64,000 bases of DNA from Caldifarciminota bacterium (GTDB lineage: Bacteria > Hydrothermota > Hydrothermia > LBFQ01 > DSFT01). The DNA lies in NCBI GenBank assembly GCA_025060695.1, contig JANXBH010000008.1, positions 1 to 64,000 on the forward strand, written 5' to 3'. Made by a program: the position numbers and the translations under genes. Each line of letters begins with the position of its first letter. Position 1 is the stretch's first letter. Positions 46,392-50,719 of the stretch are shown here, piece by piece. The notes under the pieces are model-generated. The model made no database searches and was not told the DNA's origin. It worked only from the letters and a program-made list of their open reading frames with translations.

Positions 46392-48887
46392 ATGGTTTCA
46401 GAAAGTTATAAAGCAAAAATTATTCAATTTATCAAGAAAATGGACTATGAAGAAAGGCTAAATTTAGCAAAAGCTTACAAATACAACATTCATAAAATAT
46501 CATCTGAATATTTTATAATAGATTTCCATGCTCATATAAATGCACTAAGTGAAGAGCAGTATAGTGCACTTTTTGTGGGTGATGAAGCATATGCAGGCAG
46601 TGAAAATTTCCTAAATATACAAAAGAGAGTAAAGGATATATTTAAAAGAGAATTTTTAATACCAGTGCATAATTTAAGAGGTGCGGAGCATTTAATATTT
46701 AAAGTATTTGAAGGAGACTTTTTATCAAATAAACCAACCGACTCATTTCTTGTGCTTTCAAAATACTTCAAAAGAAAGATCTCAGAAAACAACGCAAATG
46801 TAGGATACTTTACCATAGAAAGCAACTTTGAAAAATTCTTAGATATTAAAAAGAACTTAAAAAAAGTTTCAATATTAAATGCAAGTAATATATTTTCTCA
46901 AATAGTATTTTGGAAAATTGAGAATAAATTAAGTGGAAGTTTAAAGGAATTAGTTTACGAATTTACCAAGGATTTTGATATACTATTAATTAGTGCGGAG
47001 CAGGACTTAATGGGTCATGTAGGTGCAATTATTTTATTAAATAACAAGGAGTATTATAATAAGTTTTGTGAATGGCTTGTTTCATTCGAAGGACTTCATA
47101 CATATGGTGGTCTTTCAGGTAGAGACATGGAACTTATAGCAGTTAGTTTGGACCAAGCATTAAATGAGGAATATTGGAGATATAGATATTACGAGCTAAA
47201 GGATTTATTTGATAAACTAATGGACATTGGGTATGAAGTGTTTGATTTAACAGGAGATGGATTTTATATTAAACTTGAAAATGCAATAGGATTTAATCTT
47301 GTGCTATTTCTCTCATCTCAAAGCAGAATAAGGGCATATGATAATATTGCATATGTAAGAGTTCCAAAAAGGGTTTATTTTAGAGAACATTTTGAATATT
47401 TTTTAGATGCAATGAAATATATGAAAAGGCAGGAATTACCAAGGCTTTCAAAACTTTCAGATACTATATTTTATGAAGTAGAGGTAATGGACTATGAACT
47501 GACTGAGCCTTTAAGAAGATATGAAGAAATAAAATTTAGTGGATTTAACTATAAGATGAAAGGTATTGAAATTATATCAAATAAGTCTAAAGAGTATAGA
47601 ATGGACGCTATAGAAGAAGCTGGATATAATACATTTTTACTTAAAAGCGAGGATGTATATATTGATTTACTAACTGATTCGGGAACTTCATCTCAAAGTG
47701 ATGAGCAGTTTTTTGAAGGTTTAAAATACGATGGAAGAGATGCATATAAGATATTAAAAGAGAAAGTTTATGAAATTTTTGGTTTTGACTATTTTGTACC
47801 TACACATCAAGGAAGACAAGCTGAACACTTCTTATCTCAGCATCTAATAAAAAAGGGTCAATATGTATTAAATAATATGTATTTTACAACCACAAGGTTT
47901 CATCAGGAATATGCAGGTGGTATATTTGTGGACTTAATAATTCCATATGCGAATATTCCAGAACATCCCTATCCATTTAAAGGAGATTTTGATATTGAAG
48001 CGGTAGAAAACTTTATAAAGGAAAAAGGTCCTGAAAACGTTGCATATATTTGTATTGAAACTAATGTAAATATGGCGGGTGGTCAACCAGTTTCTATGAG
48101 AAATATAAAACAACTAAGAGAAATAGCTGATGAATATAAAATACCTGTGGTTTTTGATGCAACAAGAATTGCAGAAAATGCATATTTTATAAAGCAAAGG
48201 GAAGAAGGATATAAAGACAAAACTATAAAGGAAATTATTAGGGAAATTTTGAGTTATGGAGATTTTGCTACTATTTCTGCAAAAAAAGACCCATTAACTA
48301 ATATAAGTGGTTTGTTATTAATTAGAAATGAGGAATTATATAGAAAAATATACGAATTTGCAAGTGCTTTTGATGGTAGTCCATATAATGGTGGTCTTGC
48401 AGACAGAGACCTTATAATGCTATCTATTGGATTAGAGGAGATGACTAACTACGAATATTTAAAAACTAGAATAAGTCAAGTTGAATATCTTGGGAAAAAA
48501 CTATTAGAAAATAACATTCCAATTGTAGAGCCGATTGGAGGACATGCGGTATATATTGATGCTAAGAGATTTTTAGAACATTTAGAACAAGATGACCTTC
48601 CTGCACAAGCATTGGCAGGTGAGATATTTATAGAGGGTGGTGTAAGAACTATGGAGAGAGGGACAGTTTCCGCAGGAAGAGATCCGATAACTAAAGAAAA
48701 CAGAAAACCAAAATTGGAACTTGTAAGAATTACTATTCCAAGAAGGGTTTATTCAAATAGTCATATGGACCATGTAGTTGAAACTATAGTAAATGTATAT
48801 AAAAGAAGAGAGAGCATTAGAGGACTTGAGTTTGTATACGAGCCTCCATTTTTAAGATTTTTTACTGCAAGATTTAAAGTTAAATGA
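46392..48887 (+). CDS. tpl: Tandem-fused tyrosine phenol-lyase with complementary half-active sites
   Basis: An 831-residue protein made of two beta-eliminating-lyase copies. The C-terminal copy (about 396-831) is a PLP enzyme of the tyrosine phenol-lyase type: T-H-Q-G-R (471-475), F-T-T-T-R (498-502), D-A-T-R (Asp589), S-A-K-K-D with the PLP Lys632, M-E-R (754-756) and R-F-F-T-A-R-F at the end. T-T-T and M-E-R match tyrosine phenol-lyase rather than tryptophanase. The N-terminal copy (about 1-395) has S-A-E-Q-D (201-205) in place of S-A-K-K-D but keeps G-D-E-A-Y-A-G-S-E-N-F (63-73) and T-Y-G-G-L-S-G-R-D (237-245). The C-terminal copy lacks the first loop and has P-Y-N-G-G for the second. Expected reaction: tyrosine to phenol, pyruvate and ammonia. 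Followed by an overlapping CtaB-fusion gene. Confidence 0.85.
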   Translation: MVSESYKAKIIQFIKKMDYEERLNLAKAYKYNIHKISSEYFIIDFHAHINALSEEQYSALFVGDEAYAGSENFLNIQKRVKDIFKREFLIPVHNLRGAEHLIFKVFEGDFLSNKPTDSFLVLSKYFKRKISENNANVGYFTIESNFEKFLDIKKNLKKVSILNASNIFSQIVFWKIENKLSGSLKELVYEFTKDFDILLISAEQDLMGHVGAIILLNNKEYYNKFCEWLVSFEGLHTYGGLSGRDMELIAVSLDQALNEEYWRYRYYELKDLFDKLMDIGYEVFDLTGDGFYIKLENAIGFNLVLFLSSQSRIRAYDNIAYVRVPKRVYFREHFEYFLDAMKYMKRQELPRLSKLSDTIFYEVEVMDYELTEPLRRYEEIKFSGFNYKMKGIEIISNKSKEYRMDAIEEAGYNTFLLKSEDVYIDLLTDSGTSSQSDEQFFEGLKYDGRDAYKILKEKVYEIFGFDYFVPTHQGRQAEHFLSQHLIKKGQYVLNNMYFTTTRFHQEYAGGIFVDLIIPYANIPEHPYPFKGDFDIEAVENFIKEKGPENVAYICIETNVNMAGGQPVSMRNIKQLREIADEYKIPVVFDATRIAENAYFIKQREEGYKDKTIKEIIREILSYGDFATISAKKDPLTNISGLLLIRNEELYRKIYEFASAFDGSPYNGGLADRDLIMLSIGLEEMTNYEYLKTRISQVEYLGKKLLENNIPIVEPIGGHAVYIDAKRFLEHLEQDDLPAQALAGEIFIEGGVRTMERGTVSAGRDPITKENRKPKLELVRITIPRRVYSNSHMDHVVETIVNVYKRRESIRGLEFVYEPPFLRFFTARFKVK

Positions 48888-50719
48888 TAAAGGACTATAT
48901 TAATATAATTAAGCCTAGTATAAGTTTATGGGTAAGTATTACCGCATTTAGTGGTTCTCTTATTGCGCAAGATAGCTTAGATATAGCAAAGTCGTTATTA
49001 ATTAGTCTTTTTGTTTTTCTATCCGCAGGAGGTGCATCTGTATTAAATAATTATTTTGATAGAGAATTAGATAAATCTATGGAAAGAACCAAAAATAGAC
49101 CCATTCCAAGTGGTAGGGTAAGTCCAAAATTTGCAGTAGTATATGGTATTTTACTATCTCTTATTGGTCTTTTTGGAATATATTATTTTAGTATAAAAGC
49201 GTTTATCTTAGACCTAATTGCAATTATTTCTTATTCTTTTCTTTATACTTTCTTAAAGAGAAGGCATAGTATTTCTCTAATTGTTGGTTCAATTCCAGGG
49301 GCTCTACCTCCTTCTATCGGTTATGTTGCAATTAGAAATGAATTTGACATTACGGCATTCATTTTATTTTCAATTCTATTTCTATGGCAACCTGCGCATT
49401 TTATTTATCTTTCAATCTTCTTAAAAAAGGACTATAGTAGTGTAAATATTCCAGTAATTTCAGTAGTTTATGGTGAAAAATATGCAAAATTTTTAAGTTT
49501 CATATATTCTATAAGTCTAATTCCTATAACAATTATTCTTTTTTTTGTAGGCAGATTTAGTAATGCGTTCTTTATTTTTATTTTATTCATAAATTTTTTG
49601 TGGCTTTTTGCTAATTCACTATATTATAAGAACTTATTAAGAGAAAAAGCTATGTTTTTACTTTCTAACTTCTATGTTTTACTTATATTTTTAACCATGG
49701 CTTTAGATAGGGTGATAGTAAGAGATGCTCCTCAAAAGGTTAGAGATAGGATAGTAGAACCAAATGTAAAGGTTGAAATTTTTGCACAAAATCTTGAAAT
49801 TCCGTGGGAATTAGCGTTCTTTAATAGAAATAAAGCGATAGTTTCTGAAAGAGTAGGTAGAATAAGACTTATAAAAGATGGTAAGTTAGTAGATAAACCT
49901 TACTATTCTTTTAATGATGTTAAGCACGTAGGTGAAGGTGGTCTTCTTGGTATCGCAATAAGAGATAGTTTCATATATGCATACTATACCTATGAAGATA
50001 GAGGTAAAATTTTCAATAAAGTTGTAAGATTGAAGGATAGGGGAGATAGTGCTATTTTTGACAAAGTTATATTAGATAAAATCCCCGGTGCTATGTATCA
50101 CAATGGAGGTAGGATTAAATTTGGTCCTGATGGATATTTATATATTACTACTGGAGATATATTCCAAGGAAATTTGGCACAAGATTTAAACTCACTTGCA
50201 GGTAAAATATTAAGAGTAGATATGGATGGCAAAATTCCAAAAGACAATCCCTTTAAGAACTCTCCTATATATTCTTATGGACATAGAAATCCACAAGGTT
50301 TAGCTTGGCATTCTAAAACTAAAACTCTGTATTCTTCTGAACATGGGCCGAGTGGTGAATTTGGATTAACTGGATACGATAGAGTTAATAAAATTATAAA
50401 AGGATATAATTATGGATGGCCAAAAATTGTTGGTGCAGTAGATAATACAATAATTGTATGGAAAGAAACTACTCCTCCTTCAGGAATGGATTTTTTAGGT
50501 GATAGTTTATTTATTGCAACGTTAGCAAGTAAGTGCTTAATTATGGTAGAGATTAAAAACAATTTAGTAAAGAATATCGAAAGATGGTTTTGTAATAAAT
50601 ATGGTAGGATAAGAAGTGTGGTAGTTTTTGAAGGTTATATATATTTTTTAACAAGCAATAGAGATGGAAGAGGAATACCATATGAAAATGACGACAAGAT
50701 ATATAGATTTAAACTATGA
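48884..50719 (+). CDS. Haem O synthase (CtaB) fused to a PQQ-type aldose dehydrogenase domain
   Basis: A 611-residue fusion. Residues 1-280 are a UbiA-family prenyltransferase of the CtaB/CyoE type: N-N-Y-F-D-R-E-L-D (first metal site), N-R-P-I-P-S-G-R, Y-T-F-L-K-R-R-H-S, G-A-L-P-P-S-I-G-Y and L-W-Q-P-A-H-F with K-K-D-Y-x-x-x-x-I-P. Residues 290-611 are a soluble-glucose-dehydrogenase-like six-bladed propeller: I-P-W-E-L-A-F, S-E-R-V-G-R-I-R, E-G-G-L-L-G-I-A, H-N-G-G-R-I-K-F-G-P-D-G and G-H-R-N-P-Q-G-L-A-W-H. With nine helices, the CtaB C-terminus would face the periplasm, where such dehydrogenases act. There is one continuous frame with no internal ribosome site; 4-bp overlaps join it to both neighbours. 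Confidence 0.75.
   Translation: MIKDYINIIKPSISLWVSITAFSGSLIAQDSLDIAKSLLISLFVFLSAGGASVLNNYFDRELDKSMERTKNRPIPSGRVSPKFAVVYGILLSLIGLFGIYYFSIKAFILDLIAIISYSFLYTFLKRRHSISLIVGSIPGALPPSIGYVAIRNEFDITAFILFSILFLWQPAHFIYLSIFLKKDYSSVNIPVISVVYGEKYAKFLSFIYSISLIPITIILFFVGRFSNAFFIFILFINFLWLFANSLYYKNLLREKAMFLLSNFYVLLIFLTMALDRVIVRDAPQKVRDRIVEPNVKVEIFAQNLEIPWELAFFNRNKAIVSERVGRIRLIKDGKLVDKPYYSFNDVKHVGEGGLLGIAIRDSFIYAYYTYEDRGKIFNKVVRLKDRGDSAIFDKVILDKIPGAMYHNGGRIKFGPDGYLYITTGDIFQGNLAQDLNSLAGKILRVDMDGKIPKDNPFKNSPIYSYGHRNPQGLAWHSKTKTLYSSEHGPSGEFGLTGYDRVNKIIKGYNYGWPKIVGAVDNTIIVWKETTPPSGMDFLGDSLFIATLASKCLIMVEIKNNLVKNIERWFCNKYGRIRSVVVFEGYIYFLTSNRDGRGIPYENDDKIYRFKL

Follow-up and report, generated by a model that had tools for sequence, protein, structure and literature searches.

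A fused tyrosine phenol-lyase from a WOR-3 lineage bacterium with two oppositely degenerate halves and a predicted composite active site

Tyrosine phenol-lyase (TPL; EC 4.1.99.2; PF01212, TIGR02618) is known as a homotetramer of subunits of about 456 residues, each with its own active site. In tryptophanase (TnaA) of E. coli, a member of the same family, the hydroxyl groups of Tyr74 and Tyr307 bond to the pyridoxal phosphate (PLP) phosphate of the neighbouring subunit in the catalytic dimer, and the Y74F variant has negligible activity (PMC2770544). The non-catalytic interface of the same enzyme contains a four-strand sheet, to which subunits A and C contribute residues 12-17 and 58-60 (PMC2770544). 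In the P. vulgaris enzyme, the leaving group receives its proton from Tyr72*, a residue of the opposite chain (PMC11301627). The TPL equivalent is Tyr71, while Arg381 and Thr124 act on the substrate hydroxyl (PMC9262865). In the initial annotation of the locus described here, the loop tyrosine (Tyr71) was likewise said to be supplied by the neighbouring subunit. Five positions are said to separate TPL from tryptophanase (PMC5805759).

Active sites shared between two unequal partners have precedents. The closest functional parallel is a set of hybrid dimers that combine the H463F and Y74F variants of E. coli tryptophanase (Phillips 2002, cited in PMC11301627); as far as the citing article describes them, one good site is obtained from two oppositely damaged subunits, but the mutants were mixed in vitro and are neither natural nor fused. 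Glycine decarboxylase P-protein (GcvP) has two fold-type I halves in one polypeptide, and its N half has no PLP lysine but Gln instead (PMC7259800), as in the protein described here; it belongs to another family, catalyses another reaction, and is fused or, in some bacteria, split into alpha and beta chains. For serine palmitoyltransferase, a homologous pair (LCB1/LCB2) in which one partner is without the PLP lysine, a single active site was proposed (PMC3794620); here the genes are separate, and family and reaction again differ. By its sequence, the present protein appears to follow the same pseudo-dimer principle of fold-type I enzymes, two homologous halves of which one is without the PLP lysine. 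With one working site per chain, it would be the counterpart in nature of the tryptophanase hybrids made in the laboratory. The design is thus known in other fold-type I PLP enzymes, and its fused form in the TPL/tryptophanase family appears to be undescribed: no report of a natural fused TPL or tryptophanase was found in literature searches that covered few subscription journals, in line with the initial annotation, which knew of no such enzyme. Annotated plasmids, searched as a source of a known name, held ordinary TPLs only, among the matches listed.

The window analysed is a stretch of 64,000 nucleotides; all coordinates given below are on its plus strand. Positions 46392-48887 form a single uninterrupted open reading frame of 831 codons plus stop codon, which encodes two TPL copies in tandem and has homologues of the same architecture. 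The host, whose genome measures 1.5 Mb in 77 contigs and is 95% complete, is a member of a WOR-3 lineage. The Pfam family PF01212 (Beta_elim_lyase) matches the whole protein with an E-value of 4.3e-77, and also matches the halves separately (N half 4.6e-12, C half 2.4e-64). The C half shares about 53% identity over its length with the TPL structures 1c7g/2ez1 (Erwinia herbicola, Citrobacter freundii; E 1.5e-153), and the N half aligns with the same enzymes in two matching stretches (E 3.8e-34). Both halves are thus TPL/tryptophanase homologues, as expected from the initial reading of two copies of one fold. The score of the whole protein against TIGR02618, the NCBIfam TPL equivalog, exceeds the cut-off (721.2 vs 720.7) only through the sum of both halves; the C half alone scores 593.7, under that cut-off. 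The GDC-P family gave no match in the fused protein in a Pfam search that considered E-values up to 1. No fused pseudo-dimer such as GcvP occurred among the structure matches listed, a result that carries no weight in either direction, since the C half fills the lists.

Residues 382-831 of the predicted structure superpose on residues 1-456 of TPL (7tcs_A, Z 58.7, rmsd 1.2 Å, 450 aligned residues). This places the joint near 382/383 and not between residues 395 and 396, where the initial annotation had divided the protein. Together with the linker lengths, it delimits a joint region of residues 365-386 (47484-47549).

The C half (residues 383-831; 47538-48884) is a full TPL copy by sequence matches and predicted fold, and is taken as the catalytic one. 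The catalytic residues that act in cis (K257, T124, R381, R404 and F448/F449 in Citrobacter TPL numbering) are all present in it. The PLP-lysine motif SAKKD (629-633; 48276-48290) has both lysines, as in 27/27 C halves of the fused proteins compared below, with Lys632 at the position of TPL Lys257. DATR (589-592; 48156-48167) supplies the equivalents of TPL Asp214 and Arg217, likewise in 27/27 C halves. In the alignment, Arg756 of MER (754-756; 48651-48659) corresponds to TPL Arg381, the contact of the substrate hydroxyl (PMC9262865), Arg779 (48726-48728) to Arg404, which binds the substrate carboxylate, and Phe823-Phe824 (48858-48863) to Phe448-Phe449. The two loops that TPL subunits donate to each other are degenerate here. 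In loop 1 (439-449; 47706-47738), four residues are missing opposite TPL 67-70 and the motif is gone, as had been proposed; Tyr446 adjoins the gap, and the loss of Tyr71 is therefore not quite clean in this C half, which is one of four with a tyrosine beside the deleted loop. Loop 2 reads PYNGG (664-668; 48381-48395), with Asn666 at the position of Tyr291, a tyrosine found in 0/27 C halves.

The N half (residues 1-382; 46392-47537), recognised as a degenerate TPL copy by Pfam, TIGR02618, TPL matches and alignment, shows the opposite picture. Its PLP-lysine motif is dead, SAEQD (201-205; 46992-47006) standing where SAKKD is expected. The cis catalytic residues listed above are missing from it, and the stretches opposite TPL 140-170 and 182-194 are deleted. 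The two donor loops are retained. Donor loop 1, GDEAYAGS (63-70; 46578-46601), has Glu65 and Tyr67 at the positions of TPL Glu69 and Tyr71, both of them kept in 27/27 N halves. In TPL, the potassium ion that activates the enzyme is bound by Glu69 of the adjacent subunit. Donor loop 2, EGLHTYGG (233-240; 47088-47111), has Leu235 and Tyr238 at the positions of TPL Met288 and Tyr291, again in 27/27 N halves. The tyrosines kept by the N half and lost by the C half, Tyr71 and Tyr291 in TPL, are those that correspond to Tyr74 and Tyr307 of E. coli tryptophanase. All motifs named in the initial annotation, in the N copy (GDEAYAGS 63-70, SAEQD 201-205, TYGG 237-240) as well as in the C copy (DATR, SAKKD, PYNGG and MER), were located at the places quoted. 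The genus-mate L006 has SADAD and the family-mate L141 has SATED at the SAKKD position of the N half, and both donor loops are intact in each.

The losses were compared in an alignment that combined 27 halves of each kind with 94 single-domain relatives and took its numbering from a Citrobacter TPL. Glu69, Tyr71, Leu288, Thr290 and Tyr291 are kept in 27/27 N halves. None of these halves has Lys256, Asn185, Arg404 or Phe449, and 25 of them have lost the PLP lysine Lys257; Asp214 and Arg100 are retained in some. All 27 C halves keep K256, K257, R100, F123, T124, N185, D214, R217, S254, N262, R381, R404, F448 and F449, and all have lost the Tyr71 loop motif. The same pattern emerged from an unbiased scan, made without reference to residues already known. 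Of 104 columns at least 90% conserved in the 94 single-domain proteins, the only ones kept in N halves and lost in C halves are D68, Y71, G73 and Y291; the converse class has 27 columns, including T49, S51, F123, N185, S254, K257, R404 and F449. When partly weakened columns are included and the loop boundaries are set by the analyst, seven of the nine columns kept in N halves and weakened in C halves fall in the two donor loops, vs 10/104 overall (Fisher p = 1.9e-7). N halves diverge faster than C halves (mean distance 0.65 vs 0.42), and the donor loops are their best-conserved part (0.90 vs 0.49 elsewhere in the N half); in C halves the loops have decayed (0.54 vs 0.70 in the remaining C half). 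The loss pattern is far above chance. The 27 fused proteins, all being homologous, count as one evolutionary event.

Such complementary losses very probably reflect a beta-eliminating lyase of TPL type whose ancestral pair of identical subunits has turned into two specialised halves, with one composite site per chain. The C half would hold the whole cis part of the site (Lys632, Asp589/Arg592, Asn560, Thr499, Arg756, Arg779 and Phe823/824). The catalytically dead N half would donate the trans part, with Tyr67 protonating the leaving group, Tyr238 as the ligand of the PLP phosphate, and Glu65 in addition. Each chain would thus have one working and one dead site. In known TPL the subunits are equal, whereas the copies fused here are unequal and, judged by residue content, the site is incomplete in each of them: the half with the PLP lysine is without the Tyr71 motif and Tyr291, and both occur in 27/27 N halves. 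The opposite losses and the single composite site per chain that had been proposed for the window protein are in this sense borne out by the pattern across the 27 fused proteins.

If the N half were a scaffold or regulator only, its loops would be conserved for folding or dimer contact and not for catalysis. The rapid divergence of the remaining N half and the deletion of parts of it speak for such a role. The conserved side chains, however, are the known trans-acting Y71 and Y291, exactly those that the C half has lost, and a C half without Y71 and Y291 would have no proton donor unless the N half supplied it; the scaffold role is therefore improbable. Even more improbable is an N half with a second PLP site or another chemistry, which would give the protein two different active sites. 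It draws on the Asp214 and Arg100 retained in some N halves and on L003 and L004, whose N halves have a lysine (codon AAG) at the PLP-lysine position, in DASKD and DATKD; against it stand the loss of Lys256, Asn185, Arg404 and Phe449 in 27/27 N halves and the stretches opposite TPL 140-170 and 182-194 that are absent from the window protein. L003 and L004 are a sister pair, and their neighbours carry Q, E or Y at that position. Their N halves have neither Lys256, Asn185 and Arg404 nor Phe448/449, and the lysine looks like a regain in a half where the rest of the site is missing. Homologues with two intact lysines, which the initial annotation had named as evidence against a shared site, were thus encountered in a weak form, in these two proteins only.

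The composite TPL-type site is also expected to have TPL specificity. The C half is TPL-like at four of the five positions that distinguish TPL from tryptophanase (Thr124, Met379, Arg381 and Phe448). The remaining position, Met288, belongs to the trans loop, where the N half contributes Leu, as in many single TPLs. Asp137, Ile396 and His463 of tryptophanase are absent from the C half, and Thr499 and Phe823 occupy the positions of Asp137 and His463 (list from PMC5805759). On the basis of these TPL-type residues, tyrosine phenol-lyase activity is predicted. The likely reaction is the cleavage of L-tyrosine, with phenol, pyruvate and ammonia as products, or its reversal. The host also encodes a separate single-domain relative (L002, 449 aa) with intact motifs and tryptophanase-type specificity residues, a TnaA-like protein.

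Composite sites could be assembled in two ways, and the residue evidence fits both. According to the initial annotation, the halves complement each other in cis; the same composite site would then form inside one polypeptide, the two halves making up the catalytic dimer. This is the simplest reading of the fusion and the natural expectation from the fused glycine decarboxylase, which is a precedent only. A first one-chain model (pLDDT 81.8, pTM 0.71) offered a hint in the same direction, as three aminotransferase alignments started at N-half residues 221-226, next to a donor loop. That weaker model was replaced by one from a deeper alignment of 28 sequences (mean pLDDT 90.6, pTM 0.89), in which the hint is gone. 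Two equal domains freely placed would be expected to give a pTM of about 0.5, and the value of 0.89 suggests that the placement of the halves is predicted with confidence.

The second model has strands in the arms of both halves, at residues 6-13 (46407-46430) and 387-394 (47550-47573), as well as in the short segments 52-53 and 435-436. These four strands correspond to the non-catalytic sheet of tryptophanase, in which residues 6-13 have their counterpart in the interface arm (PMC2770544), and most simply the two eight-residue arm strands pair with each other. The blocks of lowest confidence in the model are 231-240 (61), 61-70 (66) and 661-670 (75), which are the N-half donor loops and one C-half counterpart, though the alignment shows the N-half loops to be nearly invariant. 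The donor loops are least confident as if their partner were absent, which makes a site between chains more likely. With the interface chosen in this way, from the secondary structure and local confidence of a one-chain model, assembly in cis becomes unlikely though far from negligible, and the earlier claim of complementation in cis is not upheld by the model. A composite site between two chains, and not within one, is fairly likely. The joint is short, and in that arrangement the non-catalytic interface would be used inside each chain, while the N half of one chain would complete the C half of another, giving a homodimer with the shape of the normal tetramer.

At least 27 complete or nearly complete fused proteins were found in genome searches, so that the domain pair sought in other genomes recurs across many phyla. 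Among the matches listed, they occur in WOR-3 lineages, Myxococcota, Bacteroidota, Acidobacteriota, Gemmatimonadota, Chloroflexota and Thermodesulfobacteriota. Among 150 relatives, G002, G006, G011, G014, G016, G021, G055, G109, G128 and G143 contain the full fused frame; the fused gene of G001 and G003 is in pieces, cut by contig ends, and G004, G005 and G010 contain short fragments, mostly at contig ends. Contig ends that cut the gene in several WOR-3 genomes might suggest an assembly artefact, or the gene might be a decaying pseudogene. Such explanations are refuted by homologues of the same architecture, with uninterrupted frames in many phyla, including one in a record whose title calls it a chromosome (CP070722, L041), and by the sharply selective conservation; they deserve next to no credence. 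No free-standing N half was seen among the WOR-3 genomes.

In phylogenetic trees, all N halves group in a single clade (support 98), and the C halves form another (97), which is placed inside TPL. The root and attachment point of the N-half clade are uncertain owing to long branches. The two sub-trees are parallel (Mantel rho 0.89, 0/2000 permutations). Single, parallel clades of both halves indicate that the fusion probably took place once and was followed by joint inheritance. A protein from Myxococcota (L034) branches among WOR-3 proteins, which fits some transfer between phyla. The shortest N halves, 382-401 aa, are those of the window's own order, while N halves elsewhere reach 460 aa; the dead N half seems to have been trimmed in this order. 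A slightly better than even chance is given to the full reading of the fused proteins as a widespread, undescribed TPL class, in which chains swap halves to form two composite sites between them and the N half is trimmed while its loops stay fixed.

The composite-site enzyme would represent complementary degeneration as it occurs in nature, maintained in many lineages, by which a symmetric enzyme with identical composite sites became asymmetric, with a single site per pair. It preserves a record of the residues each half could lose, and it allows cis and trans residues of the TPL/tryptophanase family to be mapped from sequence. It may serve as a test bed for the question what leads an enzyme to abandon half of its sites, and as a scaffold for mutating the two sides of one site separately, in a family used for the production of L-DOPA and tyrosine derivatives.

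A split pseudo-dimer encoded by two genes was considered as well. Sixteen loci have tnaA-like and tpl-like genes nearby, both intact in each case, and do not represent unfused halves. Adjacent intact pairs of this kind recur in Bacteroidota, Bacillota, Actinomycetota and Pseudomonadota (L038, L039, L040, L043, L044, L069, L070, L074, L079, L083, L101, L105 and others). In WOR-3 genomes, the single-domain proteins L017, L024, L027 and L028 have both lysines and Arg404 but no Tyr71 or Tyr291; by their residues they may perform different chemistry or pair with another subunit.

As a functional clue, no conserved gene neighbourhood was found, save for an ornithine cyclodeaminase-family gene in four WOR-3 genomes. 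In these genomes (L011, L012, L013 and L014), a gene for 328 aa lies closely downstream of the fused gene, and the L011 copy, which was scanned, belongs to the ornithine cyclodeaminase/mu-crystallin family. In the window, the downstream gene (48884-50719) overlaps the stop codon of the fused TPL gene by four bases. Its product is itself a fusion, of a UbiA-type prenyltransferase (aa 19-250) and a glucose/sorbosone dehydrogenase (aa 304-596); in the relatives searched, these two domains are encoded in separate frames.
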